Origin: a virus
IMG/VR virus record: IMGVR_UViG_3300033149_006154
Span: 1-47,589 of that record
Length of the DNA: 47,589 nucleotides
Reading direction: 5' to 3' (one strand)
Every line of letters starts with the position of its first letter. Position 1 is the stretch's first letter. The notes beneath the pieces were generated by a model that did not search any database, was not told the DNA's origin, and saw only the letters and a program-made list of their open reading frames with translations. Of the stretch, positions 4,422 through 41,744 are shown one piece after another. The position numbers and the translations under genes are program-made.

Positions 4422-4862
4422 TCACTCCCATCCTGGCGTCGCGTCCCACTGCGGCAACCGGTGAACGATGCTGTGCGCGAGTTCGTCGGCGTACCGCTCC
4501 AGCTCGGCAACGAGGGCCTGATTCGTCCACTTGGTGCTCTCGCACGCCTGGTAGATGAAGCAATCCAGAGCCTTCAGGAATATCATCGGGGTTATCGGTA
4601 CCTTCTTTACCTTCGGCCGGGCGCTCGGAATCATATCCTTTGCGTCGTCGCCGTAGCGCTCCCGAACCGCCGCCACATTGATGTCGAACAGGGTGTTTAT
4701 CAGATAATAGGCGGCCTCGCGCTTTTGTGCCTCGGTCATTTCGTTCCAGTAATCAGCAGGCAGGGGCGGCGGAGGGTACTTACCGGACGTGTCCTGACGC
4801 GCCTCTATCAGGCCGGTCACAATCCGCTGGAACGTAATCTCACTACAGACGAACGCGCTCAT
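4422..4862 (-). CDS. Small protein, paralogue of 3975-4418
   Basis: A 146-residue protein, the second member of the pair with 3975-4418. Shared signatures are the start MSAFVCSEITFQRIVTGL, the block LFDINVAAVRERYG, and FLKALDCFIYQACE. The ATG overlaps the serine recombinase stop as ATGA, so translation is probably coupled. The Tyr/Asn/Arg-rich middle and the DCxxYQ(A/S)CE motif are typical of a common but uncharacterised phage family. Confidence 0.75.
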   Translation of the reverse strand: MSAFVCSEITFQRIVTGLIEARQDTSGKYPPPPLPADYWNEMTEAQKREAAYYLINTLFDINVAAVRERYGDDAKDMIPSARPKVKKVPITPMIFLKALDCFIYQACESTKWTNQALVAELERYADELAHSIVHRLPQWDATPGWE

Positions 4863-5560
4863 TCTCCACTCCTTTCTGCGTGTCGTTTAAGAATTCGATG
4901 GACAGTAGCGGGGTACCACCGCTGGCGTCCGCGGAAGGGGACGCCGTTCTCTTCCATGTACCGCGCGATTTTCCGACAGCCCATGCCGCCGCGCCTCAGC
5001 ATAATCATGCGCTGGAGCGCCATCTGCTCCTCGGGGTTCTCGATGAGCATCGCCGGGTCGTCCGGGTCGCGCTGGAACCCAAAAGGCGGCCGGTCGCTCA
5101 TGCGCCGCTTCTGGGCCTGGTACCGAAGCATCGCCATCTTGGTTCGTTGTGCGATGATTCGCCGCTCGTACTCCGCCAGGGCGGCCAAGATTTGCCGTGT
5201 CATGCGGGCAGCCGGGTCGTCATCTTCACCCACGTGATGTTGAACGGCTTCCAACCTGGCCCGTTTCTGCTTTATCTGGCGGATAATCGTCTCACACAGC
5301 AGGACGTTCCTCGCCAGGCGGTCCAGGTGCGACACGATGAGCACGCGCCCCGGCCGCAGGTCATCAACTGCGGCCCACAGGCCCGGGCGCTCTGCATCAT
5401 CGCCTGACAACGCCTCATCGGTGTAGGTGGCGACGACCTTGTATCCCTTTTGGCGTGCGTACTGCTTACAGGCCGCAATCTGGTTGGCGATACTCTGTGA
5501 ATTCGCGGCATCCGGGCGGTCACTGAACCGCGCGTAGATTATCGCCTCGGTTTTCCGCAT
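4859..5560 (-). CDS. Serine recombinase (resolvase/invertase family)
   Basis: A 233-residue serine recombinase. The catalytic core starts IIYARFS with the nucleophile Ser13 and Arg11, followed by QIAACKQYARQKGY, a DEALSG loop, and SHLDRLARN with the expected arginines. The second part (RPPFGFQRD through GCRKIARYMEENGVPF and a final VHRILKR) is a short recombinase-type DNA-binding region; the zinc ribbon and coiled coil of large integrases are missing. The ATG at 5560 fits the family start. It could integrate the genome, resolve dimers or invert a segment. No att site can be assigned from one sequence. Confidence 0.9.
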   Translation of the reverse strand: MRKTEAIIYARFSDRPDAANSQSIANQIAACKQYARQKGYKVVATYTDEALSGDDAERPGLWAAVDDLRPGRVLIVSHLDRLARNVLLCETIIRQIKQKRARLEAVQHHVGEDDDPAARMTRQILAALAEYERRIIAQRTKMAMLRYQAQKRRMSDRPPFGFQRDPDDPAMLIENPEEQMALQRMIMLRRGGMGCRKIARYMEENGVPFRGRQRWYPATVHRILKRHAERSGE

Positions 5561-5643
5561 CTTCCTTATCGCCTCGAAGAACAGAACCAGATTACCAGCA
5601 CGCAGACAAGCCAGGCCAGAGGGCCGACGACGTAATCCTGCAT

Positions 5644-6117
5644 CTACCATCTCCACTGGCAGTTCTCGATTTCCTTGGCTTTCTTATAGGTCTCGCCGTA
5701 GGTGCCCTTCCAGGCGTTGAGAACCGCTTCCAGGTGCACCAGGATTCTCATTTGCTGGGCGCGGGGCAGCCGCCGCAATTCGTCTTTGGCATGGCGGTAC
5801 GGCACCGACCAGTGGAGCAAGGCGGCCAGGTAGAAGGCCCGCTTTCCGCGCCGCCCGCTTGTGCTGGGCCAGTTTGCAGCGGCGTTCGCCGCCGAAGCGT
5901 ACATGGCACCGTAATCGCCTGCCAGGATGCTGACCAACACTCCCCGCAACGAGGTGGGGCCTTTGCGAAGGGCCGCCGCAAAGGCAGCCCTTCGTTCCTT
6001 CCGCTTTTCAAGCGGGGCCTGATATGCTTCCCGCTCTCGCTTCCTGATGTCCACGGTCACGCGCGCCAGGTCAATCGGCGATACCGGCAGGCGCTTTCCC
6101 TTCCATTTCCTTCTCAT
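5644..6117 (-). CDS. Basic helical protein of unknown function
   Basis: A 157-residue, strongly basic and probably helical protein that begins MRRKWKGKRLPVSPIDLARV. It overlaps the upstream DUF932-like gene by four bases, which suggests coupled translation. The region RRGKRAFYLAALLHWSVPYRHAKDELRRLP has conserved-looking aromatic residues but matches no domain I recognise. An 83-base stretch without an assigned gene separates it from the recombinase. The charge would suit nucleic acid binding, as inference only. Confidence 0.65.
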   Translation of the reverse strand: MRRKWKGKRLPVSPIDLARVTVDIRKREREAYQAPLEKRKERRAAFAAALRKGPTSLRGVLVSILAGDYGAMYASAANAAANWPSTSGRRGKRAFYLAALLHWSVPYRHAKDELRRLPRAQQMRILVHLEAVLNAWKGTYGETYKKAKEIENCQWRW

Positions 6118-12073: not shown

Positions 12074-12691
12074 ATGGGTTTGACGAGGGAGCAGCGGCAG
12101 ACGGTCGAACGGTTGAATCGGGAGCTTTACGCGGCCGACCCGGGGCGGTATCGGGTCTGGACGAAGAAGGCTCTGGCTCTTGCAGAGAAGGAGGACATTT
12201 CGGTCAAGGAAGCGAAGTGGCGTTTGATTCCCGAGGTTCAGGGGGACAGTGATGGGGTGGCGCAGGAAGAAGGAGGACGCAGCGCGCCGAAGAAGGCTGC
12301 GGCGCGAAATTCACGGTTGGAAGAAGAAGACTGGACGTTCGGAGCGGAGGACTTCGAGGGAGTAGACGAGAAGTCCGTCAGTCGGAAGCAAATCGTGGAT
12401 TGGGTCGCGGCGAACATTCTGAACCGCGACGTGAAGGTTTCGGACGCCCCGTGCCGCAGGGCCTGGGCGCTTCTTCGGGACGTAAGGCAGTCGAGGGAAT
12501 TTCGGGTGAAGACCTTCTGGCCGCAGGTCTGGTCGAGAATCGTCGAGAGGGCGGACAAGAAGGAAGAGGAACCCGAGAGGGAAGCCGGTGACGCGCAAGT
12601 GCTCGATACTATCCGACGCCTTGCAACTGAAGAGCCAGACGAAGAACCAGCCGACGAGCCTGTACAGTCTGGTTCCGAAGGACAAGGATAA
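12074..12691 (+). CDS. Possible terminase small subunit
   Basis: A 205-residue protein, first in the late unit. GGAGGAGAG lies directly before the ATG at 12074. The N-terminus is a charged helix (LTREQRQTVERLNRELYAAD). An acidic, flexible centre follows, then a helical region with KQIVDWVAANILNRDVKV and RRAWALLRDVRQSREFRVK, and a very acidic tail. Its place directly upstream of, and overlapping, the large terminase gene is the usual position of the small subunit. There is no clear helix-turn-helix, so the role is inferred from position. Confidence 0.5.
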   Translation: MGLTREQRQTVERLNRELYAADPGRYRVWTKKALALAEKEDISVKEAKWRLIPEVQGDSDGVAQEEGGRSAPKKAAARNSRLEEEDWTFGAEDFEGVDEKSVSRKQIVDWVAANILNRDVKVSDAPCRRAWALLRDVRQSREFRVKTFWPQVWSRIVERADKKEEEPEREAGDAQVLDTIRRLATEEPDEEPADEPVQSGSEGQG

Positions 12692-14471
12692 AAACCTCGC
12701 ATACCGGCAGCGGTGCATCGAGGCCGCCGAGGCCGACGCCCGGGTGCGCGATGCGCTGCTGACGGCCTGCCGCCAGGACCTCCTGTTCTGGCTCAACACC
12801 TTCGCGTGGATTCTCGAACCCCTCACCGGCGACGTAAAGCCCTTCATAACATGGCCATTCCAGGACAAGGTCCTCCTCCAGCTCCAAAGCGCGCTGGGAA
12901 AAAAGGACGTTTGTATCACGAAGAGCCGCGGGGTGGGCCTGTCCTGGATGATTCTCTCGCTGTTCGCCTGGAAGTGGCTGTTTTACCCGTTCTGCCACTT
13001 CCTGCTGGTCAGCCGGAACGAGCGGATGGTCTACCACAAGGGTGACCCCGATACCCTGTTCGAGAAGATTCGGTTCCTCATCGAGGGGGAAGCCGGCATG
13101 GCGGGCCTGCCGACCTGGATGAGGCCCGACTTCGACATGCTCGAACTCCGGCTGAAGAACGAACGGAACGGTTCAACCATAACCGGCGCTTCGACGACCG
13201 GCAACGTGGGCCGCGGCGGCAGACGCCTCGCGGCCCTGTTCGACGAGTTTGCGGCATTCGGGCGGGATGATGGTTATAGAGCCCTCTTCGCCACCCAGGC
13301 GGTCACCCACTGCCGAATTTTCAACTCCACTCCGATGGGAACAGGGAACGCCTTCTACGACCAAGCCCACAATCCGAACATCCTCCAACTGCGGGTGTCC
13401 TGGCAAGACCGCCCGGATTGGAGTCGAGGGCTCTATACCTCCAAGAACGGCCAGCTCGTCATCCTCGATAAGACCTACCCGTTCAAGTCCGACTATCCGT
13501 TCATCCTGGACGGCCGAGTAAGAAGCCCCTGGTACGACAACGAGGAGGCCCGGGCGCAGAACCGGCAGATTATCAGCCAGGAACTGGACATGGACTTCCT
13601 CGGGTCGGACTTCACGTTCTTCGACGGCAACATGCTCAATCGGGTCGAGGCCAAGACGAGGCCGCCCTTCCTTATCGGCGACCTACACTGCGACCCCGAA
13701 ACCGGCGAACCGAGGAAGTTCGTCAAGCACATGAAGGGGTGCTTGAGGCTCTGGACGAACCTCGACCCGGTCACCCAACAGCCGCCCCACGACCGCCTCT
13801 ACGCCATCGGCGTGGACGTGTCGGCCGGTACGGGGGCGTCCAACTCCTGTATCAGCGTCGGAGACGCCAGACAGCGCGCGAAGGTGGCGTCGTTCGTCAG
13901 CCCCAACATCCTGCCCTACAATCTGGCCGTCCTCTGCTGCGCTCTCGCGCGCTGGTTCGCTGGTCCCAACGGGCCGGAGCCGATGATTATCGCCGAGTGC
14001 TCCGGCGGTCACAACCGCGTCTTCCTGAAAACCCTTCGAGAGCTCGGTTATGGGAACATCTATCGGCGTCGGAGCGAGGAGCCCGGCGTCACTGGTAAGG
14101 CTGAGCCGCGGCTTGGTTGGTTGCCCACCAAGGACTCCCGCCGGGAGCTTCTGGAACAGTACGGACTGGCGCTCAACGTGGGCGACCTGGTCAACTACGA
14201 CCGACACGCCATCGCCGAATGTCGGGAATACATCTTCTTCCCTGACGGGTCCGTTGCCCATGCACGGAGCAAGAACGTCCTCGACCCATCAGGAGCCAAG
14301 CAGAACCATGGGGACCGCGTCATCGCTGATGCCCTCATGTGGAAGGTTCTCAAAGAGGAACTTCAAACGCCGGTCCCGGCCGAAGAAGGCATTCCGCCCG
14401 GCTCGTTTGCCGAGCGGATGTTGAACCGCCGTAAGGAAGAGGCCAGAAAGAGGTCATTGTGGGAGGATTGA
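12588..14471 (+). CDS. terL: Terminase large subunit
   Basis: A 627-residue packaging motor. The ATPase part has a Walker A-like KSRGVGLSW at residues 112-120 and a Walker B, ALFDEFAAF, with Asp219 and Glu220; STPMGTG further on fits the coupling motif. The nuclease part has GVDVSAGTG with Asp410 and ends with VIADALMW, giving the second acidic residue Asp581. It cuts concatemers and pumps DNA into proheads. The GTG at 12588 overlaps the previous gene by 104 bases; a later start is possible because the first 40 residues look poorly conserved. The circular ends suit headful packaging. Confidence 0.93.
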   Translation: MTRKCSILSDALQLKSQTKNQPTSLYSLVPKDKDKNLAYRQRCIEAAEADARVRDALLTACRQDLLFWLNTFAWILEPLTGDVKPFITWPFQDKVLLQLQSALGKKDVCITKSRGVGLSWMILSLFAWKWLFYPFCHFLLVSRNERMVYHKGDPDTLFEKIRFLIEGEAGMAGLPTWMRPDFDMLELRLKNERNGSTITGASTTGNVGRGGRRLAALFDEFAAFGRDDGYRALFATQAVTHCRIFNSTPMGTGNAFYDQAHNPNILQLRVSWQDRPDWSRGLYTSKNGQLVILDKTYPFKSDYPFILDGRVRSPWYDNEEARAQNRQIISQELDMDFLGSDFTFFDGNMLNRVEAKTRPPFLIGDLHCDPETGEPRKFVKHMKGCLRLWTNLDPVTQQPPHDRLYAIGVDVSAGTGASNSCISVGDARQRAKVASFVSPNILPYNLAVLCCALARWFAGPNGPEPMIIAECSGGHNRVFLKTLRELGYGNIYRRRSEEPGVTGKAEPRLGWLPTKDSRRELLEQYGLALNVGDLVNYDRHAIAECREYIFFPDGSVAHARSKNVLDPSGAKQNHGDRVIADALMWKVLKEELQTPVPAEEGIPPGSFAERMLNRRKEEARKRSLWED

Positions 14472-15159: not shown

Positions 15160-16932
15160 GTGAATCCAAACAACCCGCGACAACTGGTGCGGCTCACAGA
15201 AGCCATCCGGCAGAGCAACCGGCGCTTGCGGCCGTTTCGAGAGAACTACTTCCAGGCCGTCGAGCATTACGTCGGGAGCCGGTTCGGTGAGGTCGGTATG
15301 CGGCGGACCTACGCGAACTTCATCGAGCTGGCCGTCAACATCTATCGGCGGCATCTGGCCGCCCGAAACCCCCACGCGACGATTACCACGCCGAACATCG
15401 CCCTGAAACCGACCGCTTACGACTTCCAGACGGCGGTCAACGAGCGCATCAAGGAGATTAACCTCGTCGAGAACCTCCGAATGGGCGTCACCTACGCCAT
15501 GTTCAGCCCGCTCGGCCTGATGAAAGTGGGGCTGGAGCGGGCCGGATACATCGAGGCGATGGGGTTCCTCCACGACGTGGCTCAGCCGTTCGCCGACCCG
15601 GTCTTGTTCGACGACTGGGTCATGGACATGACCGCCACCTCGATGGAAGCCGTGCAGTTCTGCGGCAACCGTTACCGCCTGCCCATTGATGTGGTCAAGG
15701 AAGAGCCCACTTTCAACAAGACCGCGCGCGGCAAAGTGACCGGCACGGACACGGACAACGAAGGCCCTGACGACGAGTATCACGTCAAGAACATCGCCAG
15801 GGGGCTGGAATCCTACAGCGACGAGTACCAGGACCATGTCACCCTGTGGGATATCTGGCTGCCGGCGGAACGGCTCGTGGTGACCCTTGCATCGGACGAC
15901 AGCGGCGAGTTTCAGGATATACCTCCGCTCCGCATTGTCGAATGGGAAGGCCCGGATGATGGCCCTTATCACCTCCTCCGGTTCCACGAAGTACCCGGCT
16001 CTCCCCTGGGCCTTCCCCCTGTTGCTCTCTGGTACGACATGCACATCCTGGCGAACAACCTGTTCAGGAAGATGGGGCACCAGGCTGAGCGCGAGAAGGA
16101 CATCCTGCTGGTTCGCGGCGCGGCCAAGCAAGACGCCCAGAGAGTGCTCGAAGCGTCCGACGGTGACGCGATTCACGTTGAATTCGCCGACGACATGAAG
16201 GAGCAGAAATTCGGGGGCGTTGACCCGGCCACCCTCGCGTTCTTCATACAGATGAAGAACCTCTTCACATACATGGCCGGCAACCTCGATGCGCTCGGCG
16301 GGCTCTCGCCGCAGGCCGAAACCCTCGGGCAGGACCAGATGCTCCGAGCGTCGGCCTCGCAGCGGCTTGCCGACATGCAGGACCAGGTCATTACCTGGAC
16401 CCGCGGCATCGTCCACGCCATCGCCTGGTACATCTGGCAGGACCCGCTGATTCGTGTCCGGTACGAGCGGAAAATCGAGGGCACGGACATCGTCGTGCCG
16501 GGCGAATTCAGCTCGGAAACCAAAAAGGGAGACTTCAGCGACTTCAAGATTGACGTGCAGCCCTTCAGTATGCGGCACGAAGACCCGACCGTGCGGCTGA
16601 ACCTCATCCGCAGCATTTGGCATGAGGACATTCTCGGGGCCATTCAGCTCCTTACCGAACAGGGCGGGGCTCCGAACATCAAGGAGTATCTCAAGCTCGT
16701 GGCCGAGTACGCCAATCTGCCCGAGCTTCAGTACCTCGTGAACTTTGACGTGCCGCGGCCGAACGAGATGCCGCAACCGGCCGGCCCACAGCAACCGGCC
16801 GGTGGGAAGAGAATTTATGAGCGGGTCAGCAGGCCCGGGGGGACGCCGGCCGGCCGCGAGAACGCTCTTGTGAATCTCCTGTTGGGCGCGCAATTACAAC
16901 AGGGGCAGGCGCGCCAGCTTGCAGAGGAGTAG
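15160..16932 (+). CDS. Portal protein
   Basis: A 590-residue protein starting at GTG 15160 after AGAAGGA. Size, position after terminase and before scaffold and capsid genes, and features support a portal. The N-terminus is helical and Arg-rich (AIRQSNRRLRPFRENYFQAV); the centre is strand-rich with DDWVMDMTATSMEAVQF; later there is a long helical region (RASASQRLADMQDQVITWTRG); and the end is Pro/Gln-rich. The dodecameric ring of such proteins forms the DNA entry channel and tail attachment site. No single motif is diagnostic, so context carries most of the weight. Confidence 0.8.
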   Translation: MNPNNPRQLVRLTEAIRQSNRRLRPFRENYFQAVEHYVGSRFGEVGMRRTYANFIELAVNIYRRHLAARNPHATITTPNIALKPTAYDFQTAVNERIKEINLVENLRMGVTYAMFSPLGLMKVGLERAGYIEAMGFLHDVAQPFADPVLFDDWVMDMTATSMEAVQFCGNRYRLPIDVVKEEPTFNKTARGKVTGTDTDNEGPDDEYHVKNIARGLESYSDEYQDHVTLWDIWLPAERLVVTLASDDSGEFQDIPPLRIVEWEGPDDGPYHLLRFHEVPGSPLGLPPVALWYDMHILANNLFRKMGHQAEREKDILLVRGAAKQDAQRVLEASDGDAIHVEFADDMKEQKFGGVDPATLAFFIQMKNLFTYMAGNLDALGGLSPQAETLGQDQMLRASASQRLADMQDQVITWTRGIVHAIAWYIWQDPLIRVRYERKIEGTDIVVPGEFSSETKKGDFSDFKIDVQPFSMRHEDPTVRLNLIRSIWHEDILGAIQLLTEQGGAPNIKEYLKLVAEYANLPELQYLVNFDVPRPNEMPQPAGPQQPAGGKRIYERVSRPGGTPAGRENALVNLLLGAQLQQGQARQLAEE

Positions 16933-18616: not shown

Positions 18617-19675
18617 ATGGCAACCTTGACGATTGACCAAATCGCCGACATGGTTGTCGCCACCCAGAAGGACCTTGGGCGTCTTCGGCTCACGGAGATT
18701 GCAACGGACCTTCAGAGGCATGTGGCTCTGTCGCAGCTGATGAAGAAAAACCGGCGCGTCTTCCGCTCGGGTACGGAGATTCAGTTCAACGTCCTCCTGA
18801 ACGGAGACGACAACACCCGGAACGTCGGCCTGTTTGAGGTGGACAACCTCAACCAGGCGGACGGCCTGGTGCAGGGCTCCGCGCCTTGGCGGCATACCAC
18901 GTCGGGGTACGTCTTCGACCGCCGGCAGGTGAGCATGAACCGCAGCCCCGCCAAGATTCTCGACATCGTGAAAGAGAAGCGGTACATGCAGCTCATCGGC
19001 CTGGCGGAGAAGATGGAAGAGAACTTCTGGGGTCAGCCCGCCAGCTCTTCGGACCTCAAGACCCCGTTCGGCATCAAGTACTGCTTGGTGTACAACGCCA
19101 CCGAGGGCTTCAACGGCGGCAACAACAGCAGGTTCTCGGGCGGCCCCTACGGCATTGACCGGAACGCGCACTCGCGGTGGAAGAACTACACCGCGCAGTA
19201 CACTGCGGTCAGCAAGACCGACCTCATCCGCAAGATGAGGAAGGCGGCCGTGATGACGAACTTCATGCCCGTCATCCCGAACCCGCCCATCCCGGACTAC
19301 GCCGACGGCCACCGGTACGGGTGGTACACCAACTACGACGTGCTCGGGCCGATGGAAGAGCTCCTGGAGGACCAGAACGACCGGCTCGGCAATGACCTGG
19401 CGTCGAAGGACGGACAGGTCCTGTTCCGCCGGACCCCGGTGACGTTCGTTCCGTACCTCCAGCAGAACGATTCCACTTCGGACCCGGTCGTCGGCATTGA
19501 CTGGGGGGTCTTCAAGACCGTCGTGCTCCAGGGTGAATACCTGCGAGAGGAACGGCCGCGGCCTGCGCCGTTGCAGCACAACGTGCTCCAGGCTTTCCTG
19601 GACCTGACCTACAACTGGGTGTGCTACGACTGCCGTAGGCTCATCCTCATCGCCAAGTCGGACTGGGCTTCGTAA
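18617..19675 (+). CDS. Major capsid protein
   Basis: A 352-residue protein with a strong GGGAGGTAAC ribosome-binding site. It matches a known phage capsid type by blocks such as FGIKYCLVYNATEGFNGG, NYTAQYTAVSKTDLIRKMRK, RYGWYTNYDVLGPMEELLE and DGQVLFRRTPV. The fold is expected to be HK97-like. There is no long N-terminal delta domain, consistent with the separate acidic scaffold. It follows the scaffold gene and begins a series of structural genes. Confidence 0.88.
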   Translation: MATLTIDQIADMVVATQKDLGRLRLTEIATDLQRHVALSQLMKKNRRVFRSGTEIQFNVLLNGDDNTRNVGLFEVDNLNQADGLVQGSAPWRHTTSGYVFDRRQVSMNRSPAKILDIVKEKRYMQLIGLAEKMEENFWGQPASSSDLKTPFGIKYCLVYNATEGFNGGNNSRFSGGPYGIDRNAHSRWKNYTAQYTAVSKTDLIRKMRKAAVMTNFMPVIPNPPIPDYADGHRYGWYTNYDVLGPMEELLEDQNDRLGNDLASKDGQVLFRRTPVTFVPYLQQNDSTSDPVVGIDWGVFKTVVLQGEYLREERPRPAPLQHNVLQAFLDLTYNWVCYDCRRLILIAKSDWAS

Positions 19676-26606: not shown

Positions 26607-27049
26607 TGGCCAGGGAAGTGATACCGACTGCTGAAGAACAGCGGATTCTCGACGAGGGACCGTTTTGCCATCGGGCCAAATGGGTCCAGCACCACATCAC
26701 CGGCCAGCGGATTATCGCCTGCAAGCTCTTCTCTGAGGTGTGCTATTTCCCGCGGCCGGACAAGCCCGGGTGCAAACGCTGCCGGTTCAACACTCACCAG
26801 CTGCCTGTGCCCGAGCCAGATTGGGTGACCAGGATGCAAGACGCAATCGCCGAGGGCATTCCACCTGAGGGCAACAGCGCTCGGGAGGTCATACGAGCGC
26901 ACATGAACAAAGCCGAGCGACCGGACATGTCGAACCCCGAAGTCCGCGATTTCTGGCGGGGGGTTGTCCTCGCGGCGGTTGCGCGAGGACTGGCACCGCA
27001 TGATGCGACGGCCATGGCGGTCGAGGAGGGCATGGTTGAAAGCGAATGA
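26606..27049 (+). CDS. Protein of unknown function, coupled to the glycosyltransferase fusion
   Basis: A 147-residue protein whose ATG overlaps the previous stop (TGATG). The N-terminal half has Cys residues (FCHRAKW, IACKLFSEVCYFPR, CKRCRF), perhaps a metal site. The C-terminal half is helical (RDFWRGVVLAAVARGLAPHD). Its last 14 bases overlap the start of the next gene, which argues for coupled synthesis and related function. No domain is recognised. Confidence 0.6.
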   Translation: MAREVIPTAEEQRILDEGPFCHRAKWVQHHITGQRIIACKLFSEVCYFPRPDKPGCKRCRFNTHQLPVPEPDWVTRMQDAIAEGIPPEGNSAREVIRAHMNKAERPDMSNPEVRDFWRGVVLAAVARGLAPHDATAMAVEEGMVESE

Positions 27050-29642
27050 GTTCCTGGCGAAGGCAGAGACGGTCCATCAGGAAGGCATATCAGCTTTCCG
27101 AGCGAAGCCCACCTGTGTGACCTGTCGCCAGGCGCGCCGGCCGAAGCGGTCGGTGCTCCTTCTCGGCCGGTACAGGCGGCACGAAGGTCCGATGAAAGAG
27201 ATAATCAGCGCACTACTGAAGGCCGGGTGGGGCGTTCGGCACGTCTATGAGGACCGTCAAGCGCCGCTGTGGAACATAGACAAGCTGGTGGCCGAGATGG
27301 ACCCGAAGCCCGTTGCAGTCACCCGCTGGGAAGAGGCCGGGTGGGTGTTTACCAACCGACAGTGGCGCGAAGCCTGCCGCTGGTGCTATGAGAACGCCAT
27401 CGTGCCGATGCAGATAGACTTCGGGTACTGGGACCACTACAAGACCATCATACTCGATGCCTACGACAAAAATGGGGAGAACAGCATCAAGAAACATTGG
27501 CCGAATCTCTCGCCTGTTCCGCGGTGGCAGGATGCCGATGAGGTGGCGCTGGCCTATCGGGACCGGCAGGCGGAGTCGTGGAAGAGGGCGGGGGAGCTCG
27601 GCCCGGTTCCTGGGACTGAACCCGGATACATCCTGGTCTACCTCCAGGGGAGCGCTTACGCCTCGGTGTTGCCGGGGCCTCACCCTAACATGTACGACGA
27701 TTGGGTGGCCAGGTGTCAGAAGGAAATCACCAGCCGCGGCGAGCGGGTGGTGTGGAAGTACGCCGACATTCACAAGCGCATCATGCCGGAGGCGCACGTC
27801 GGTTTCGGCCGGCGAGTGGAGCCCGGCCGGGGGATTCCGGAGCTCAACGCGCGGTTGCTGCGGTATGCGAAGCACAGCGTCATCGTGACCTCCAGTGTGA
27901 GCAACGAGGCCGTTCTGCGTGGTTTGCCTGTCGTCGCCTGCGGCAAGGGCTGGCACAGTGGGCTCGGCGTCTTTGCCGAGGCCAGGGATTGGGCCGATTT
28001 GGTCTGGACCCCTGTTGTGGACCACGCCGCTCGCGGCAAGTGGATAAACTGGTGGATTCAGCGCCAGCGACCTATTGAGCGGTTCCCTGAACAGCTGGAG
28101 CGCGTGCTCTGGGAGACAAAACCTACGAAGCGTACCTGCTTCACGATTGGCTGCGGCTTGGGGAACCTGATAATGGCGATGCCTACCATCAAGGGACTCG
28201 CGCAGCACACCGGGGGCAGGGTTCACATCGCCTCGATGAAGTCCATGCCGAAGGGCTACCGAGACATTGCGGTGGAACAAGATCGCTTTGTCAGCGGGGC
28301 CAGTAAGGAGCTTCCGTTGCTGGAGGACTTCGACACCGTGACTGGGGCCGCCTGGTCCGCCTACGTCCCGCCAGACATCCCTGAGGAAGTGTACTCAATC
28401 CCGCCCGGGCCGGACAGCCGTCTGCCCCGAGAGCCCATTGCCGACGCCGTTGCGCTCCGGAGAGCGGGCTACGGTGGCATTCTGCCGAGCACACGGCTTG
28501 AAATCTGTGCCCCGGCTCCGCGCACTCTGCCGGCCGCCTACGTCGTAGTCGGCATGGACTGCACGGATGGCAAGACCTGGAGCAAGAGACGGTGGCCTCA
28601 CTGGGAGCGGTTTGCTCAACTCTGGGCGGGCCGCGTACCGCTCGTGTTCCTCGGGAAGACTCCCGCGCCATGGGCGAAGAACTACGGCATTGACCTGATA
28701 GGCATGACGGAACCACATCGGGCGGCCGCAATCATCCAGCAGGCCGAGGCGTATGTCGGCATAGACAACGGCCTCAGCCATCTCGCCGGCGCAACACGCT
28801 GCCCTGCTCTTGTGCTGTACGGCCCGACGACCAGCCTTGAGTCTGGACCCTGGTTCGGGGGTTTGACGGCCCTGGCGGCCGACATTCCCTGTCGCTCTTG
28901 CTTCGGCATGGTACAGTGGGACACATGTCAGCACAACCGCTGCATGGAGCAGCTCGCACCGGAAACCGTTGTTGAGGCCCTTGAGAAGGTTTTGAACCTT
29001 CGCGGCCAGCCGCTCCGGGACCTGACGGCTCAGGAGCAAACCAGGGCAAGATTGACGCGCGCCAATCGGACACATTTCGGTCCCTTTCAGGACCTTGAAG
29101 AGATACGCGCTGTGTGGCCCATCATTGAGGAACTTCGGCCGCAGCGGATTGTCGAAATCGGCACCCGACATGGTGGCTGGTGCTACTTGATGGCACCCAT
29201 CTGTGCCGAAGGGGCTTCGTTCGTGACGGTGGACACCGAACAGACGGACGCTTACGCGCTGATGAAGCAGCAGCTGATGTTGGAGGGCTATGGCCTCACG
29301 ACAATCGTCGCGGACAGCCAGCAGGAGGAAACCGCCGAGGCCGTGCGATGCGCACTCAACGGTGCGCCGGCCGACCTCCTTCACATTGACGGCAGACATC
29401 GTGAGTCGTTCGTCTTGCGAGATTGGGAGCTCTACAGTAAGATGGTGCGCCCAGGAGGGGTTGTACTCTTCCATGATGCGGACCCCTTCCGGCGTAGCAG
29501 CGGAGTCTATCGTGCGATACTGAGGATTCAAACGGAGAAACGACACACGGACCGAGTTTACAGGTGGCGCGGCGTCTGGAATGCCCACGTTGTGAGCGAC
29601 CGTCACCGGATGGGAATCTACGTTGCCGAGATGAAACCCTGA
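27036..29642 (+). CDS. Trifunctional protein: GT-B-like glycosyltransferase, GT9 heptosyltransferase-like and SAM methyltransferase
   Basis: An 868-residue fusion. I chose the TTG at 27036 because GAGGAGG lies six bases upstream. Residues 1-360: a polysaccharide-synthesis-like part with CVTC near the start and SVSNEAVLRGLPVVACG, the motif that places a nucleotide-sugar site. Residues 370-680: a GT9/heptosyltransferase-like part with GLGNLIMAMPTIKGL, WPHWERFAQLW, VGIDNGLSHLAGA and LYGPTTSLESGPW. Residues 695-868: a class I methyltransferase with IVEIGTRHGGW and ADLLHIDGRH, then RPGGVVLFHD, like CmcI/sugar methyltransferases. It may build and cap a glycan on virion or host surface. Confidence 0.75.
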   Translation: MKANEFLAKAETVHQEGISAFRAKPTCVTCRQARRPKRSVLLLGRYRRHEGPMKEIISALLKAGWGVRHVYEDRQAPLWNIDKLVAEMDPKPVAVTRWEEAGWVFTNRQWREACRWCYENAIVPMQIDFGYWDHYKTIILDAYDKNGENSIKKHWPNLSPVPRWQDADEVALAYRDRQAESWKRAGELGPVPGTEPGYILVYLQGSAYASVLPGPHPNMYDDWVARCQKEITSRGERVVWKYADIHKRIMPEAHVGFGRRVEPGRGIPELNARLLRYAKHSVIVTSSVSNEAVLRGLPVVACGKGWHSGLGVFAEARDWADLVWTPVVDHAARGKWINWWIQRQRPIERFPEQLERVLWETKPTKRTCFTIGCGLGNLIMAMPTIKGLAQHTGGRVHIASMKSMPKGYRDIAVEQDRFVSGASKELPLLEDFDTVTGAAWSAYVPPDIPEEVYSIPPGPDSRLPREPIADAVALRRAGYGGILPSTRLEICAPAPRTLPAAYVVVGMDCTDGKTWSKRRWPHWERFAQLWAGRVPLVFLGKTPAPWAKNYGIDLIGMTEPHRAAAIIQQAEAYVGIDNGLSHLAGATRCPALVLYGPTTSLESGPWFGGLTALAADIPCRSCFGMVQWDTCQHNRCMEQLAPETVVEALEKVLNLRGQPLRDLTAQEQTRARLTRANRTHFGPFQDLEEIRAVWPIIEELRPQRIVEIGTRHGGWCYLMAPICAEGASFVTVDTEQTDAYALMKQQLMLEGYGLTTIVADSQQEETAEAVRCALNGAPADLLHIDGRHRESFVLRDWELYSKMVRPGGVVLFHDADPFRRSSGVYRAILRIQTEKRHTDRVYRWRGVWNAHVVSDRHRMGIYVAEMKP

Positions 29643-33641: not shown

Positions 33642-36600
33642 ATGCCTGCGCACACTGAGAATATCGAAGAGCTACTGAACGTGCTTGCCTGGGGGCGGCC
33701 AGAACTTACGCCGCCCCCAGGGGCAGAAGGCGTCGGCCAGAAATCGGGTGGTGCACTGCCTTCCGACGACGAGTCCATCCCGTTGGAGCTCCTGATTCAG
33801 GCTTACGACCCCACTCAGGGCCGCTTGGCTGGCCTGGAATCTCTCTCCGATTGGGAAGCCCCGGAAGACTACGACTACACAACCCAGACCGGCATCAAGC
33901 CGCTGGTGAGAGACATCTGGGGCGGAACCCTCGAAACCATCGGGAAGTTTGGCACAAGCGTTGGTCGTGTGTTCCGAAGGGGCTTGGGGGGGCAGCCCGT
34001 GAGGCCGTTCTCTGAAAAGCATCTCGCCCAGATGACGCCCGAACAGCTTGTCGCGGCGGCGGAATATCAAACGGAGCTTGAGCGGCAGATAAGGCCCGTC
34101 GGCGAAATGCGGAAGTACCACTGGGTTTACAACACTTTTAAGGGCCTCGAAGATTATGTTCAGACCACCGCGCACCTGCAACCGCAGAAGATTGACCGGT
34201 GGACGCAGCTTTTGAACCCCATGCGGCTGGCGCGCGCTGTCGTGCGGACCCTTCCTTATATGGCCATGACGGTCGGGGCAACGTTCGTTCATCCCGCATT
34301 GGGTTTCGCTGTTACAGGGGCAATTGAGGGCGAAGACGCCATCGAGGCGGCGGAGGCTCGCGGCGCGTCAAGTCGGGACGCCCTGCTGGAGGGTGCGGCG
34401 GTAGGCGTCGTCAGCGGTGCCATCGAGTTCCTGACGCTGCGTGGTGTGTTGCGGGTTGGCCGCAAGCTGGGCAGGGCTGGCGGCCGGATATTCGGCATCG
34501 CCAGGAACGCCGACGATGTCGCCAAGCTTGCGGCAGTCGGCAAAGCGGCGAAAAGAGGCATGGTTGAGTATGCCCAGGCGATGCGCAGGCTGCACGGCGC
34601 AGGCTTTGCCAGGGAAGTGCTCCACGGCGGATTGATGGAAGGCATCGAGGAAATCCTCCAAGGCACCGCTCAGGAGCTTGGGGCTCAACTCTTCGAGGAT
34701 GAGCCGATTCCGCCTGGCTTTTTCGGCCGACGAATTCAGGAATTCCTGGTGGCTGGCGTGGCGGGCTCCATAGCGACCGGCGTAACGCTGACCGCGATAC
34801 GGTACAAGCACCGGCCGCCCGGGGCGCTTTACGAGGACTTCCTGCTGACGGCCGGTCGAGCGAAGGGCTGGAGCCGCGCGGAAATTGAGCGCGCAATAGG
34901 CCACAAGCTTCCGCCGTTCCTAAGAAGCGAGCGGAACCGGCAGCAGTGGTATAACGCCGCCAAACTTACCGTGAGCCGCGCGGTACACCTTTTGAACAGC
35001 ACAGACCCCGCGGCTGGTTTCGCTCAGCTGATGCAGCTGGCAGCGGCCGAGAACGTTATCCAGAACATCGCCGAGGCGGACGAAGCGGCGGGGGCGCGCA
35101 ACAGCCCCATGGAGCAAGTTACGCGGAAGCTTCTTGAGCACGGAGCCGTTCGGTCCCTGGTCCAACAGGGAGCGCAGAAAAACCCCAATCTGGCTCGCGC
35201 GCTTGAGGCTGCCGATGCGGGTGAGCCGGTTGCGGACATCTTGGCTGATGAGACCTTGGCTGCGGCTGCCTACGTGACAGATAACCTTCTGGCGCGGGGC
35301 AAGCCCGACCTGGAGACAATCAAAGGCTCGCCGTTCCTGACAATTGACGGAGCGCCACTACCGGACCTGTATGCGCTTGCGAACGATGCGCGTAGGCGAA
35401 TCAAGGCCGGTCTCACGGTAGACGGCTACCGAGCGCTCGTCGAGGAATACGTGAGCAAGTTCGGCCTCACACCCGAGGCGAGGGAACTTTACACTGCCCT
35501 TGGCGGTCTCGTACCCGAAGCGCCGGGAGCCCTGGGCGAGGTTGCGGCAGAGACAGAAGGTGGCGTCCCGCTCGTTCCAGCCGGGTACATCACCGATTCA
35601 ATATGGAATCAGCTCGTTTCTTTGTCTCGCTCGCTTCTTGAAAAGAATCGCCAAGCCAGGACCTCCGGACAAGGTCCCATCTTTTCGGCGCAGACATTGA
35701 ACAGGGCGCGCCAAATTTTGGAGCGCGAAGAGCGCAGTGCCGCACAGCGCGAGAGACTTGGAAGGCTTCTGAGGCTCATAGATAGGATAGAGGAAAGGCT
35801 GAACCGGCCGCTTGACGAAGCTGAAGCCGAAATCATACGTGGCCGGAAGGAGCAGGTTGTCAGAGGTCTGGCTGAAACGCTCGGTTTAGACCCCTCGAAC
35901 TTCCACGATGTCGAACTCCCGTGGTTGCGGAGAATCGCCGAATCTGCCTTGACCAGCGCAGACTACCGCCGCTTGTTCCGCCAGAGCATGGCGTGGAGCG
36001 AATACGCCCTCATTGAGAAAGCTCGCCAGGAACGCGCAGCGGGCGAAGCCGAGGCAGAGAAAGCCGCCGAGGGCGCGGAGGAGGGGGCCGCGGAAGAGAA
36101 GACCGAGGAGCAGCGACAGGCCGAAGAGACTGAAGAGATGGAGGAACCTCAGGAACCTCAGGCCGAGGAGGCTGAGGGCGAGAAGCCCCCGGTCGAGGTG
36201 GCCGAACGCAAGAAGCCCACAGAGGTTGGTGCTCCTCCGCCGATGGAAGAGCCTGTGGCCAAGCCGCCAGGCGCGGGCGTTGGTCAAAGAGTCAGCATGG
36301 GAGAGAAGGGCCTTCCCATCGTGACCAATAAGCCTTTCGACGGGGATATTGACGAGCTGCGAAAAGAATATGGGCTCACTCAGGATGCGATGAAGCGCAG
36401 CCCTGAACGATCTGCGCGCAAAGACGTTCCAGCGCTCAGTGCTGCCCTGACGTGGGAAGAGCACGACTATAGATATCCGGAAATCGGCGCGCTTGCCCTC
36501 GACGATAAGTTTGTGGACGCCCTACGAAAGAGACTCGAACAGCTACCAGCCAAGGGCACTGGCGCGTTTCTTGCCCTGTTTCAGGAGCGATATCAGGAGT

Positions 36601-39600
36601 ACCTGGAACGTGCCAAGCAAAAGGGCGGCCATGAGGCGCTGCGGGATTATCTGCTGGCGCGCAGGATGTACGTGGACCCGAAGACCGGCCGGTTCGCGTT
36701 TGCTGGCACCGGGGAGGCAGACGAGGTCTTTAAGCGCCAGATGGCGTTCGCCCTGGCTTTCTCGGAAGTAGCGGCTTTGCTGAAGAGGGAGCCAGGCGTA
36801 ACCAACACTGAATTCGGGGCGTTCTTCCGTAAGCTGGTGTTTGAGCCACTGCAACGGCTTCGGGACGAACATCTCGGGCAATCGAAAAAAGGTGCCCGTA
36901 ATCTTACGCGAACAGAACGAGACGAACTTCTTCGGTACCTCACCGATAATGCCCCGGCCCCGGGCCTGACGCCAGACATCTGCCAGAAGCTTCTCCAAAA
37001 CGATGGCGAGACGGGCACGGTTGCGGCGGTATGCGTAGCGCTCGGAATTGACCTGAGCGGTGACATTAGCTCCGCGCACCAGGAAGCGTACCAGCTCGGC
37101 GGCCTGTTCTTTGCGGCTCCTCACATGCTTACTGAGCGCACGTCCAGGGTGGATAATGCGCTTACCTCGAATATCAGGCTTCGGGTAGCTGTACCGCTTT
37201 GCCCATTCTATACATGGTTCAAGACCATCAAGGAACTGGACGCAACATACAAACGCGACCTGAAGAAGGAGAACGCACGGAAGATTTTCAGAGCCGCACT
37301 GAAGAAAATACAGAAGAAAACCGCAACGCAGCGCCCGCTCAGCAAGAACGAAGACAATCTGCTGATGCACTATGGAGCGTTTCTCGGCGAGCTTCTGCAT
37401 GTGCTGCGCACCAGGCCCGAAATGCTGACGGGTGGAAAGAAGGCGGACGAGAAGACCGGGAGGATTCGGTTCAGACACTTCGAGAAGGTTGGGCGCTACA
37501 CGTTGCTGTCCTACTTGGAGTCGAAGGACAACACTCCGCGGCGGATTCCCATTCATCCCGAACTACGCGCAAAGATTGATGCTTTCTTTGAGCTCGCTAC
37601 CGGCAACGAAAAGCCCGGGGCCAACGACCCAATAGTGCCGCTAAACCCCGCGGAACTGAACGCGATTGTGGACTACTTTGCCAGGAACCAGGAAACCTAC
37701 TTCCTCCACAAAAGCCCGCAAAGGACTCGCTATACGGTAATTCCCGGACGTGAAATAAGAGTGACGGCTGAGTGCCTAAGACGCGCCGCCTTTACCTACA
37801 TGCGTAATGCCGCGCGCCGGCTGGTCACGAACAAGGAGCACTTCGAAGCTGCCAGCGAGGTCCTCTTTGGTCACAAAGGCAAGGAGGCGGGAACGCCTGG
37901 CGAACAGAAAGTAACAAAACTTCACTACATAAGCCCCGAAGCCAGGTTGGACGTGCTGGTGAGGTCCGGGGCCGCGGAACAAATGGCCACGCTTCGGGTG
38001 TGGGAGTGGGGCGACCCCAACGCTGACATTGAGGGACCGGGAGACTACAACACCTGCGCTCAAGTGGCCAGGCTTCTCTTCCAGGAAAAGGTAAGCAAGG
38101 AAGACTACGAGAAGGCGATAAGGCTTTTCGAGGAAAACCCGCACAAGTTCTTGTTCGAAGAGCCGCAACCATATGACCCCTACAAATCTGGCAGGCGGAT
38201 AGTACGGCGGTCAAAGCCGCGCAAGCCAAAGGGTCCTGAGGGGGAGCCTGGTGAGGGTGCCTTTGCCGCCCCCGGCCGGGAAGAGGAGGTTCTCTTGGGC
38301 ACGGAGAACGTTGTCCGTGCTGCCAAGGCTATCAGAGATGCCGCCACCGGTGTCGGCAAGGTTGTCGGAAGCTGGGAGGCGCTCGGGGGCCGCGTCACCA
38401 AGAAACTGCCTGAGCCCAAAACTTTGGTGGACGAGGAAACGACGAGCGAAGCTGAGAAGGAGAATGTCGACGCGGCAGACAAGGCCGAGCGGATAGCCGA
38501 AGCGTTCCGGTTGAGCGAGCGGCCTATTGGCAAGGGCGACCTTCCCAAGGAAGACACTGAGGCCATCCGGAAGATGGTCCGCAAGGACATGAAGTACTTG
38601 TTCAACCAGATTTTCCGGCCCTACGCCCTGCCAAACGTCAAGAGCATCGCCATGGAACTGCGGAGCCGCAACGGCGCACTGATACGCTTCGGGGTTGCCC
38701 TGGCGGAGCTTTTCAAGGACTGGGAAGTCTACAGCCAGATGCTCGGAACCGGCAAGAAAGCCCTCGATATGATTGCCAGGTACGAGTCCGGGCACGAAGG
38801 CATCAACGAGAAGGAACGACGACTCTTTGCTCGGGCGAGAGCCGTGGACGAAGTCATTCAGAAGATGTGGGACAAGCTCGGCGAGCCCATGAAGCTGAAC
38901 TTCATGGAGAACTGGTGGCCGCGCGTCTGGGCTGACAAGATATCGGCCGAAGAGGCCATCCGTAGCGTCATGGGCCGGAACCCGATAGCGACGGCCAAGA
39001 TGTTCGCCAAGCCCCGCATTTACGCGACCATCCCGGAGGCCATGAAGGCCGGGCACACGCGGCTTGCGATGGACCCGGTCTCTTGCCTCAAGCTTCGCTA
39101 CAACGAGATGGCCCGCTACCTTCTGTTCCACAATCTGCCGAAGGTGCTCAAGGATGCTGGCATCATCTACTTCGTGCGCGTGGGTCAAAGACCAAGAAAT
39201 GGCCGGGACGTGAAGATAAAGCACCCGTTCTTCACGGTTACCGAAGCTCCCGGCTCCAAGGAGTTCTTGTTCGTCGAACATGTGGACACCATCAATGCTA
39301 TCCAGAGAATCCTGAAGCGCCTCGGCATTCCTTATGAGGTCGTCCGCAGAACGAACGACAAACAGCACCCGGGCGAAATCAAAAAGAAGAAGGAGCGCGG
39401 CTGGTTCATAAGGTGCACCGATGATGCCACTGCGCGGGTTTGGGCGCATGAGCTGGGCGAAGCGCTCGAAAGGTATTTCGGGGTGGGCAGGCGGCTCTTC
39501 AGGGAGCGCAGCGGCCAGACAGCCGAGCGAGCTGCGAGACTCCGAACCTTGCGCGAAGCCATGGGTTTCCTGTTCGACCTCAAGATGAAGAACGTTGATT

Positions 39601-41744
39601 GGAAATCGGAAGAGTCGAGGCTCAAAGCCAGGCGCGGCGTTACGCATCCACGAGGGAGGCTTCAGTATGCAGAAGCGCTGGGGCTTTTGATGGAGGGATA
39701 CGTCTCGGCTTACTCAGTGCTCAACGACAAGTACGCGGACGCTCTGAAGGAATTCGAGTTCGTTCTTGAGGAATTCGAGGGGGGCAAGGATATCCGGGAT
39801 AATCTGGCGAAAGACCTACCAGACCTCGCCGAGGACCAGCGAGCCGCACTCAGGAACGTTCCGAAAACGCTCCGAGGCCGGGCCGACCTTACGGCCCAAA
39901 TCGTACAGCGCGCGCCTCGAACGAAGCCTGGAAGTCCCATTCGGCAGACTATCGGCCACTACTACGCGCCGCCCGAGGTGGCCCTGCTTATCGAGAACCA
40001 TTTTGGTCCTGGCCTCTGGGGCAGCAAGCTTGGAGGCGTTCGCGCGGTCTACGGCACGCTGCGGTCGGTCAACGCCATGATGAACATGATGAACCTCGGC
40101 TTCTCGCTCTTCCACTGCATCAACACGGGCGTGGACCTGCTCGGGACTATCAGCGGAGTGTCGCTGCGCGAGCTCGCTGACCCTAAGCTGCGCAAAGGAG
40201 CGCTCGCGCGGTTCGCCAAGAACATGGCGACCCTGGGAATCCCGCGGATGATTCAGGCGCGGCGTATCATAAAGGCGTACAAGCAGGCCGCGCCGGTGCT
40301 GGAGGGGGTCATGGACCCCTCGGTCACGCTGACCGAGATTGACAGGCAAATCGCCGATGCGATTCAGCAGGCTGGGGGCCTGATAGGGCTCCACCGGCTG
40401 GACCTCATTACGAGCGAGAGGTTATTCCTCAAGACCATCGGCCAGATAAAGGACGGGGCCGAGTCGCCACTTCGCCGCCTGGTGGCCGCCGTTGCGTTGC
40501 CTCACCGAACGCTGATGAGCTTTGCCCAATGGTCCTCGGGCTTCGTGATGAAGTTCTGGGTGCCGACCGTGAAGGTCGCAGCCTTTATGACTATGTACGA
40601 ACACGAGCTCAGGCGGCTCAGCGCTGGCGAAATTTCGAGGGACCAGTTCGAGGAGAACGTCATTGACTGCTGGGACGAAGTGGACAACCGGATGGGGCAG
40701 CTGAACTACGACAACCTGTTCTGGAACCGCACGATGCGGGACCTCTTGCACCTTATGGTCCGGTCGGTCGGTTGGAACCTCGGAACCATCCGGGCGCATG
40801 GCGGGTCTATTGTGGACCTGATAATGACCAGGTACCGCATCAACGAGAAGAGCGACCTCTGGCTTTCGCACAAGATGGCCTACACGGTGAGCCTTGTGTT
40901 CCTGTATGGGCTTGCCGGCGCGATTACCATGTTCCTGTTCGGGTTGAAGCCGCGGGAGCTGAAAGACTACTTCTTCCCGCGTACCGGCCGGAAAAACCCG
41001 GACGGGTCGGACGAGCGCATTTCGTACCCGTTCTACTCGAAGGACTGGGTGTCTTTCCTTCAGAATCCGCCCCAGACGGTTCAGAACAAGCTGAGCCCGC
41101 TGTTTTCCAGTCTGTCCGCCATTTTCAACAACGAGGACTACTACGGCCGCGCCATTGCCTCTGTGCAGATACAGAGCGAGCCGATAACGTATGTCGCTGA
41201 GGTGGCGAAGTATGCAGCGGCCCAATTCGTGCCCTTCAGCGTCAGAAACTGGATGCGGTTCCGTGAGGCTGGTGCCGGTGAGCTGGTCTCTGCGGCGCGG
41301 GCCTACGCCGGCATCCTCAGTGCGCCTGCCTACGTAACCAGAACCCGCGCGCAGAAGCTGATGTACCAGATTCTGCGCGAACAGCGCCCCCGACGGGCCT
41401 TGACCCCGAAGGAAGTGCGACGACGCCGCGCCCGGCGCATGATAATGGACCACTACAAACTTGGCAGGCCGATTGACTGGAAGGAAGTCCGCAAGCACTT
41501 GTCTCCCAAAGAGATAAAGCGAACGACAAAGGATGCCAAGACGCCGTCGCTGGAGGCGAACTTCAAGCGGCTGCCCGGCTTCGACAAGAAGCTCGATGTC
41601 TTCATGCTCGGGAGTGATGAGGAACGGAGAATCTGGTGGCCGCTTCTGAGGGACTCGTTCAGGAGGCTGGACCGCCAGCATCCCGACTATCCTTTGTACC
41701 GAGAGATTTTCCGGGAGGTAAAGCGAGAGTGCCTCGGAAGATGA
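33642..41744 (+). CDS. Giant internal virion protein with tyrosine-recombinase-like region
   Basis: A 2,700-residue protein, about 17% of the genome. Residues 1-800: helical, with hydrophobic segments near 204-225, 245-262 and 365-383. Residues 801-870: an acidic Glu/Ala linker. Residues about 885-1500: a module whose end fits a tyrosine recombinase: Arg1258 (TRPEML), Lys1295 in a turn before RRIPIHPEL, ECLRR with Arg1380, GH at 1410-1411 and Tyr1429 (HYIS). A basic linker (1505-1550) follows, then a helical C-terminal part with a membrane helix near 2412-2435. It probably belongs to the ejected core. The recombinase assignment is by motif spacing; the usual HxxR has Glu for His. Confidence 0.7.
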   Translation: MPAHTENIEELLNVLAWGRPELTPPPGAEGVGQKSGGALPSDDESIPLELLIQAYDPTQGRLAGLESLSDWEAPEDYDYTTQTGIKPLVRDIWGGTLETIGKFGTSVGRVFRRGLGGQPVRPFSEKHLAQMTPEQLVAAAEYQTELERQIRPVGEMRKYHWVYNTFKGLEDYVQTTAHLQPQKIDRWTQLLNPMRLARAVVRTLPYMAMTVGATFVHPALGFAVTGAIEGEDAIEAAEARGASSRDALLEGAAVGVVSGAIEFLTLRGVLRVGRKLGRAGGRIFGIARNADDVAKLAAVGKAAKRGMVEYAQAMRRLHGAGFAREVLHGGLMEGIEEILQGTAQELGAQLFEDEPIPPGFFGRRIQEFLVAGVAGSIATGVTLTAIRYKHRPPGALYEDFLLTAGRAKGWSRAEIERAIGHKLPPFLRSERNRQQWYNAAKLTVSRAVHLLNSTDPAAGFAQLMQLAAAENVIQNIAEADEAAGARNSPMEQVTRKLLEHGAVRSLVQQGAQKNPNLARALEAADAGEPVADILADETLAAAAYVTDNLLARGKPDLETIKGSPFLTIDGAPLPDLYALANDARRRIKAGLTVDGYRALVEEYVSKFGLTPEARELYTALGGLVPEAPGALGEVAAETEGGVPLVPAGYITDSIWNQLVSLSRSLLEKNRQARTSGQGPIFSAQTLNRARQILEREERSAAQRERLGRLLRLIDRIEERLNRPLDEAEAEIIRGRKEQVVRGLAETLGLDPSNFHDVELPWLRRIAESALTSADYRRLFRQSMAWSEYALIEKARQERAAGEAEAEKAAEGAEEGAAEEKTEEQRQAEETEEMEEPQEPQAEEAEGEKPPVEVAERKKPTEVGAPPPMEEPVAKPPGAGVGQRVSMGEKGLPIVTNKPFDGDIDELRKEYGLTQDAMKRSPERSARKDVPALSAALTWEEHDYRYPEIGALALDDKFVDALRKRLEQLPAKGTGAFLALFQERYQEYLERAKQKGGHEALRDYLLARRMYVDPKTGRFAFAGTGEADEVFKRQMAFALAFSEVAALLKREPGVTNTEFGAFFRKLVFEPLQRLRDEHLGQSKKGARNLTRTERDELLRYLTDNAPAPGLTPDICQKLLQNDGETGTVAAVCVALGIDLSGDISSAHQEAYQLGGLFFAAPHMLTERTSRVDNALTSNIRLRVAVPLCPFYTWFKTIKELDATYKRDLKKENARKIFRAALKKIQKKTATQRPLSKNEDNLLMHYGAFLGELLHVLRTRPEMLTGGKKADEKTGRIRFRHFEKVGRYTLLSYLESKDNTPRRIPIHPELRAKIDAFFELATGNEKPGANDPIVPLNPAELNAIVDYFARNQETYFLHKSPQRTRYTVIPGREIRVTAECLRRAAFTYMRNAARRLVTNKEHFEAASEVLFGHKGKEAGTPGEQKVTKLHYISPEARLDVLVRSGAAEQMATLRVWEWGDPNADIEGPGDYNTCAQVARLLFQEKVSKEDYEKAIRLFEENPHKFLFEEPQPYDPYKSGRRIVRRSKPRKPKGPEGEPGEGAFAAPGREEEVLLGTENVVRAAKAIRDAATGVGKVVGSWEALGGRVTKKLPEPKTLVDEETTSEAEKENVDAADKAERIAEAFRLSERPIGKGDLPKEDTEAIRKMVRKDMKYLFNQIFRPYALPNVKSIAMELRSRNGALIRFGVALAELFKDWEVYSQMLGTGKKALDMIARYESGHEGINEKERRLFARARAVDEVIQKMWDKLGEPMKLNFMENWWPRVWADKISAEEAIRSVMGRNPIATAKMFAKPRIYATIPEAMKAGHTRLAMDPVSCLKLRYNEMARYLLFHNLPKVLKDAGIIYFVRVGQRPRNGRDVKIKHPFFTVTEAPGSKEFLFVEHVDTINAIQRILKRLGIPYEVVRRTNDKQHPGEIKKKKERGWFIRCTDDATARVWAHELGEALERYFGVGRRLFRERSGQTAERAARLRTLREAMGFLFDLKMKNVDWKSEESRLKARRGVTHPRGRLQYAEALGLLMEGYVSAYSVLNDKYADALKEFEFVLEEFEGGKDIRDNLAKDLPDLAEDQRAALRNVPKTLRGRADLTAQIVQRAPRTKPGSPIRQTIGHYYAPPEVALLIENHFGPGLWGSKLGGVRAVYGTLRSVNAMMNMMNLGFSLFHCINTGVDLLGTISGVSLRELADPKLRKGALARFAKNMATLGIPRMIQARRIIKAYKQAAPVLEGVMDPSVTLTEIDRQIADAIQQAGGLIGLHRLDLITSERLFLKTIGQIKDGAESPLRRLVAAVALPHRTLMSFAQWSSGFVMKFWVPTVKVAAFMTMYEHELRRLSAGEISRDQFEENVIDCWDEVDNRMGQLNYDNLFWNRTMRDLLHLMVRSVGWNLGTIRAHGGSIVDLIMTRYRINEKSDLWLSHKMAYTVSLVFLYGLAGAITMFLFGLKPRELKDYFFPRTGRKNPDGSDERISYPFYSKDWVSFLQNPPQTVQNKLSPLFSSLSAIFNNEDYYGRAIASVQIQSEPITYVAEVAKYAAAQFVPFSVRNWMRFREAGAGELVSAARAYAGILSAPAYVTRTRAQKLMYQILREQRPRRALTPKEVRRRRARRMIMDHYKLGRPIDWKEVRKHLSPKEIKRTTKDAKTPSLEANFKRLPGFDKKLDVFMLGSDEERRIWWPLLRDSFRRLDRQHPDYPLYREIFREVKRECLGR

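Follow-up and report, generated by a model that had tools for sequence, protein, structure and literature searches.

What is a stretch resembling a tyrosine recombinase doing inside a 2,700-residue phage protein, and would it enter the host with the phage DNA? The window analysed here, 47,589 bases long, is the viral record IMGVR_UViG_3300033149_006154 of IMG/VR, a single metagenomic contig. Directly downstream of its virion structural gene block lies an open reading frame (ORF) of 2,700 amino acids (aa) at 33642..41744 (+), here called the megaprotein. Its residues 885–1505 (36294..38156, +) form a module without detectable homologue, and the recombinase-like catalytic segment is residues 1235–1440 (37344..37961, +). 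As judged from sequence, the module is probably a tyrosine-recombinase domain in degenerate form, the worn remnant of an enzyme that rearranges DNA, and it is doubtful that it still cuts DNA.

Recombinase profile and chance matching

A preliminary description of this DNA pointed to Arg1258, Lys1295, ECLRR (E1377-C-L-R1380-R1381), G1410-H1411 and Tyr1429 in the megaprotein, and took their order and spacing as evidence of a tyrosine recombinase. All of these residues are present as described, but their order is not informative. The pattern R..K..[HE]xxR..GH..Y occurs in 30 of 3,263 unrelated proteins and in 33 of 3,263 shuffled ones, and bare motif order was rejected as evidence because its frequency is at chance level. 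For this reason a block profile was built instead from real recombinases. Its members, 22 at first and later 112, are non-redundant catalytic domains taken from phages and bacterial genomes; they were collected independently of the window, and some of the 112 are phage recombinases from contigs of the sibling phages introduced below. Scoring uses ordered blocks: the Arg-I helix, the Lys hairpin, the HxxR helix, Gly-His and Tyr.

With the 22-member profile the module scores 35.8, narrowly above every unrelated ORF. With the 112-member profile it scores 45.5, which is reached neither by the best of 4,000 unrelated 271-aa windows (33.3) nor by the best of 500 shuffles (30.8); the best of ~1,460 unrelated whole ORFs scores 33.0 and the best of 1,491 reversed proteins 32.1. 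When 1,491 ORFs are ordered by block profile score, the catalytic segment falls in with the true recombinases. Two divergent true recombinases, L215 and L216, score 46.0 and 44.9, level with the module; they are close relatives of each other and both are members of the profile. When the same profile is used in hhalign, the module scores 25.7, and 0 of 700 unrelated windows reach that value (maximum 21.5). The gap between module and controls grew when the profile was enlarged from 22 to 112 members, which is what real homology would lead one to expect.

The module could instead be an unrelated, mostly helical cargo domain whose recombinase motifs match by chance. This would be in keeping with the chance-level motif order, with the lack of a curated hidden Markov model (HMM) match and of a confident fold, and with other spurious motif-like stretches in the megaprotein, such as FLHKSPQRTRY, which was aligned to the Gly-His/Tyr columns. 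However, the calibrated profile test puts 12 bits between the module and every unrelated ORF, and the module's score stays at 39.3–45.1 when half of the profile is omitted, so that we consider a chance match unlikely. The proposed likeness to tyrosine recombinases thus holds statistically with the 112-member profile, but neither a curated HMM nor a confident structure backs it.

Catalytic positions, searches and structure predictions

Unaided, the profile chooses Lys1295, the ExxR at 1377–1380 and His1411. The Lys beta-hairpin block SYLESKDNTPRRIPIHPELRA (37509..37571, +) scores 19.8, the top of the whole 2,700-aa protein (next 10.2), with Lys1295 as the lysine of the beta2-beta3 hairpin. The HxxR-equivalent block ECLRRAAFTYMRNA (residues 1377–1390; 37770..37811, +) scores 10.5, the protein's highest for this block; Arg-II is kept as Arg1380 in ECLRRAAFTYM, and Glu1377 stands for His. 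The Lys and ExxR blocks are both the best positions of the entire megaprotein for their blocks, and their order is correct. His1411, in the Gly-His block ASEVLFGHKG (residues 1404–1413; 37851..37880, +), is picked as His/Trp-III with a modest block score of 5.2.

The remaining catalytic positions fit the profile less well. In the Arg-I helix block DNLLMHYGAFLGELLHVLRTR (residues 1238–1258; 37353..37415, +), the profile places Phe1247 at the Arg-I position, with Glu1250 at the conserved acidic position, and the arginine of the TGxRxxE helix seems to be missing. Arg1258, named as the catalytic arginine in the preliminary description, has a block score of 1.1 against 6.1 for Phe1247 and was rejected on this score, although 1 of 5 half-profile replicates prefers it. 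At His-II, Glu is found in 0 of the 112 real recombinases; these keep the His in 104 cases and Arg-I in 109. The candidate nucleophile Tyr1429 (HYISPE; 37926..37928, +) is weakly placed, with a block score of 1.1 against 3.9 for its neighbour V1424, and is in register in one MAFFT alignment. Against a recombinase origin stand the spacings, which exceed the usual (48 from R to K, 18 from GH to Y), and the fact that the Lys block supplies most of the profile score.

Searches add to these points. Pfam, PHROGs and PDB sequence searches miss the module; the profile HMM check suggested earlier matched no curated family in Pfam or PHROGs. The curated HMM PF00589 is not found anywhere in the window genome, and no Phage_int_SAM model of Pfam matches as an N-terminal SAM-like core-binding domain. 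The main weakness is that the module is known from a single sequence, so that the conservation of catalytic residues has no homologues to rest on. No relative of the module could be detected in annotated phages, plasmids, viral and genome contigs, 50 records of sibling phages or 395 Desulfobacterota genomes, and the sibling megaproteins have no match to it. With the module or its catalytic half as query, no homologue was found in viral or genome contigs, where the single-sequence searches use short exact peptide patterns and reach close relatives only. Matches in the 395 Desulfobacterota genomes were identified by eye, from their protein sequences, as GatB (with EEHDYRY in both) and FabZ and were discarded as chance.

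Structure predictions likewise give the recombinase origin no help, and the AlphaFold2 models are too weak for use as evidence. From the single sequence, the module is modelled with a predicted local distance difference test score (pLDDT) of 36, and Foldseek with this model returns no recombinase among its matches. Residues 1210–1460, folded with an alignment seeded with real recombinases, reach a pLDDT of 41 and a predicted TM score (pTM) of 0.31. In the alignment used, the blocks of the Arg-I helix, of ECLRR and of Gly-His line up correctly, but those of Lys and Tyr do not; another, made by a tool, was dropped because its HxxR block was mis-registered. In the seeded model, helices and strands follow an order like that of recombinases. 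Its top five Foldseek matches comprise XerH, an integrase, topoisomerase I and two chains of IntI, with E at least 0.06 and TM ~0.22, but the model carries the bias of its alignment and deserves little weight. The fold search that had been suggested as a check thus puts recombinases on top only in the biased model and finds none in the unbiased one.

Could the module still be an active enzyme, either a non-canonical tyrosine recombinase or one like topoisomerase IB, which acts on the entering genome to circularise, resolve or integrate it? As many as four catalytic positions are left (Lys1295, Arg1380, His1411 and Tyr1429), and the nearby Arg1258 could serve as Arg-I in a shifted alignment. 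In four sibling phages (L141–L144), a protein resembling recombinases and with similar losses is encoded by a gene of its own right after that of the megaprotein. For phage 80alpha, an ejected protein is described that protects genome ends, with a model in which it promotes circularisation (PMC7290940). Against an active enzyme, Arg-I and His-II, which real recombinases seldom lack, seem substituted, Tyr1429 is weakly placed, the phage has its own serine recombinase and no recombination site was identified. An active enzyme is possible but less likely than a degenerate domain that holds or processes incoming DNA, and we regard it as rather unlikely.

The megaprotein, its siblings and the genome

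Assembly or frame errors could also have fused a recombinase remnant to the megaprotein, given that the window is a single metagenomic contig and that the megaprotein of the closest sibling (G011, 2,154 aa) is without a module of the recombinase-like type. However, the ORF at 33642–41744 is open without interruption, and its three-position codon G+C pattern is constant throughout, including both module junctions, which argues against a frameshift. Linkers flank the module on both sides, and the cargo regions of siblings are occupied by other domains. An artefact is therefore very improbable. The acidic linker of the preliminary description (residues 801–870; 36042..36251, +) is real, with 37% Asp plus Glu and a net charge of −19. 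The basic linker described at 1505–1550 is basic only locally, in a short patch at K1515–K1530 (KSGRRIVRRSKPRKPK; 38184..38231, +), the whole stretch having a net charge of +1.

Sibling megaproteins were gathered by searching sequence collections with two queries, the terminase and the megaprotein's C-terminal part. About 70 phage loci have a megaprotein C-terminus related to residues ~1706–2690 of the window protein (38757..41711, +), mostly at ~25–35% identity. This region (~950 aa) has no Pfam or PDB match, and its identity as LPD38 was rejected, since it is not detectably LPD38. The sole bacterial-genome locus found with a related C-terminus (L137) is on contig PLLV01000025.1 of a Syntrophaceae metagenome-assembled genome, a hint of a Desulfobacterota host for part of the phage group.

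The N-terminal parts of the sibling megaproteins vary between phages. In 22 siblings, Pfam finds InPase, ddrB-ParB, ART-PolyVal, SNF2, N6/N4 methylase, SLT, lysozyme, RadC, zeta toxin, GGDEF and Rho_N domains, and PHROGs finds DarB-like antirestriction in 4 of the 22; relatives at the level of the terminase bring LPD38, SNF2 and Eco57I. In two siblings that have no recombinase, G011 and G024, a Rho_N domain, which binds nucleic acids, lies upstream in a protein of this kind. Incidentally, the GGDEF (diguanylate cyclase) domain lies within a 2,631-aa sibling megaprotein (L159; contig G444, bases 13871–14155), a predicted case of an enzyme domain of the cyclic di-GMP (c-di-GMP) type in a predicted injected phage protein.

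Many of these domains are hallmarks of polyvalent proteins, which are predicted to be packaged and injected (PMC5512222). The window ORF is very long and multi-domain, sits in the structural block and shares its C-terminus with proteins that carry known polyvalent cargo. Because the N-terminal regions of its siblings hold interchangeable polyvalent cargo, the megaprotein is likely packaged in the virion and injected, as gene order and the sibling proteins suggest.

The best explanation of the whole, which we favour with some reserve, is a polyvalent-type injected megaprotein whose recombinase-derived cargo acts as a DNA-binding domain. The megaprotein would be packaged in the particle and enter the host along with the phage DNA. 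Its C-terminal third would be a conserved delivery or scaffold part, and residues 885–1505 would be swappable cargo between low-complexity linkers. The second half of this cargo (~1235–1440) appears, on statistical grounds, to derive from a tyrosine recombinase catalytic domain, retaining Lys, Arg-II, the His of Gly-His and probably Tyr, with Arg-I (Phe1247) and the His of HxxR (Glu1377) apparently lost. Through the old DNA-binding surface of the recombinase, the cargo would most likely bind entering phage DNA or host DNA; such binding might, for example, hold or bring together the genome ends or block host enzymes.

The preliminary description went further and suggested that a recombinase may enter the cell with the phage DNA. 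Gene order and siblings agree with its setting in a megaprotein of virion or ejection type, but recombinase activity goes beyond the evidence, because Arg-I and His-II seem substituted, Tyr is weakly placed, no site or homologue was found and a separate serine recombinase is encoded. That a functional non-canonical recombinase is packaged and delivered with the genome, and that the linear DNA is then circularised, end-joined or integrated before phage gene expression, is improbable in our view.

As for the genome around the megaprotein, the structural gene block extends up to its ORF, and the genes upstream of this ORF are common to related phages. The terminase large subunit lies at 12588–14471, and genes at 15160–16932 and 18617–19675 are kept in many related phages. 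A PD-(D/E)XK nuclease gene comes after the ORF. The recognisable integrase-type gene of the phage is the serine recombinase at 4859..5656 (−), with PF00239 and partial PF07508 matches, and since the phage encodes it, integration need not depend on the megaprotein module. Its 265-aa product has a resolvase domain, but the Recombinase domain is only about half complete, and the gene is possibly truncated or split. Within the structural block, an 892-aa ORF (26964–29642, +) has heptosyltransferase-like (Glyco_transf_9) and CmcI/Methyltransf_24 domains, and no relative of it was found among the related phages compared.

Comparison with known systems

Polyvalent proteins (DarB-like, LPD38-type; Iyer et al. 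2017, PMC5512222) resemble the megaprotein in being huge, multi-domain products of the virion block with a conserved C-terminus and swappable cargo. They differ from it in their cargo, which in the megaprotein resembles a tyrosine recombinase, and in their C-terminal domain, which in the megaprotein could not be detected as LPD38. Neither recombinase nor integrase appears as a word in the main text of that survey (PMC5512222), recombinase-like cargo in a polyvalent protein is not part of it, and a limited literature search found, among the papers listed, no case of a recombinase within an ejection or polyvalent protein. Known polyvalent deliveries are methylases, helicases, ADP-ribosyltransferases (ARTs) and anti-restriction domains. 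If our reading is true, a recombinase-derived domain would extend the activities that enter the cell with phage DNA by one that rearranges or grips DNA, and would bear on the protection and circularisation of linear phage genomes in the first minutes of infection.

With gp44 of 80alpha the likeness is in the way of working, gp44 being a virion protein that is ejected and, once inside, works on the genome ends; no recombinase domain is reported for gp44 in the part of that report considered here (PMC7290940). Canonical phage tyrosine integrases (PF00589) share with the module the order and local context of the Arg-I helix, the Lys hairpin, the xxLRR helix and Gly-His, whereas the module is missed by PF00589, has Arg-I and His-II substituted and sits inside a 2,700-aa protein.

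Closer in its losses is the standalone ~400-aa tyrosine-recombinase-like protein of the four siblings L141–L144, encoded just after the megaprotein gene (L144:5613–6818, L142:13774–14976, L141:8400–9602). In this protein Arg-I is replaced by Tyr and His-II by Gly, with Lys, Arg-II, His and Tyr kept; in the module, too, Arg-I and His-II seem replaced, and Lys, Arg-II, His and probably Tyr are kept. Unlike the module, the standalone protein comes from a separate gene and has weak PF00589 and SAM-like matches, and it has no direct sequence match to the module.

Finally, MrpR (YopR) of SPbeta has the tyrosine-recombinase fold, keeps Lys and Tyr, has lost other catalytic residues and binds DNA as a repressor without recombination (PMC10516654). 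It differs from the module in being a separate repressor outside a virion megaprotein and in having lost Arg-II, which the module keeps. With MrpR as precedent, a degenerate, DNA-binding cargo is the safest reading of the module, which, if this is true, would be another recombinase fold put to a new use.

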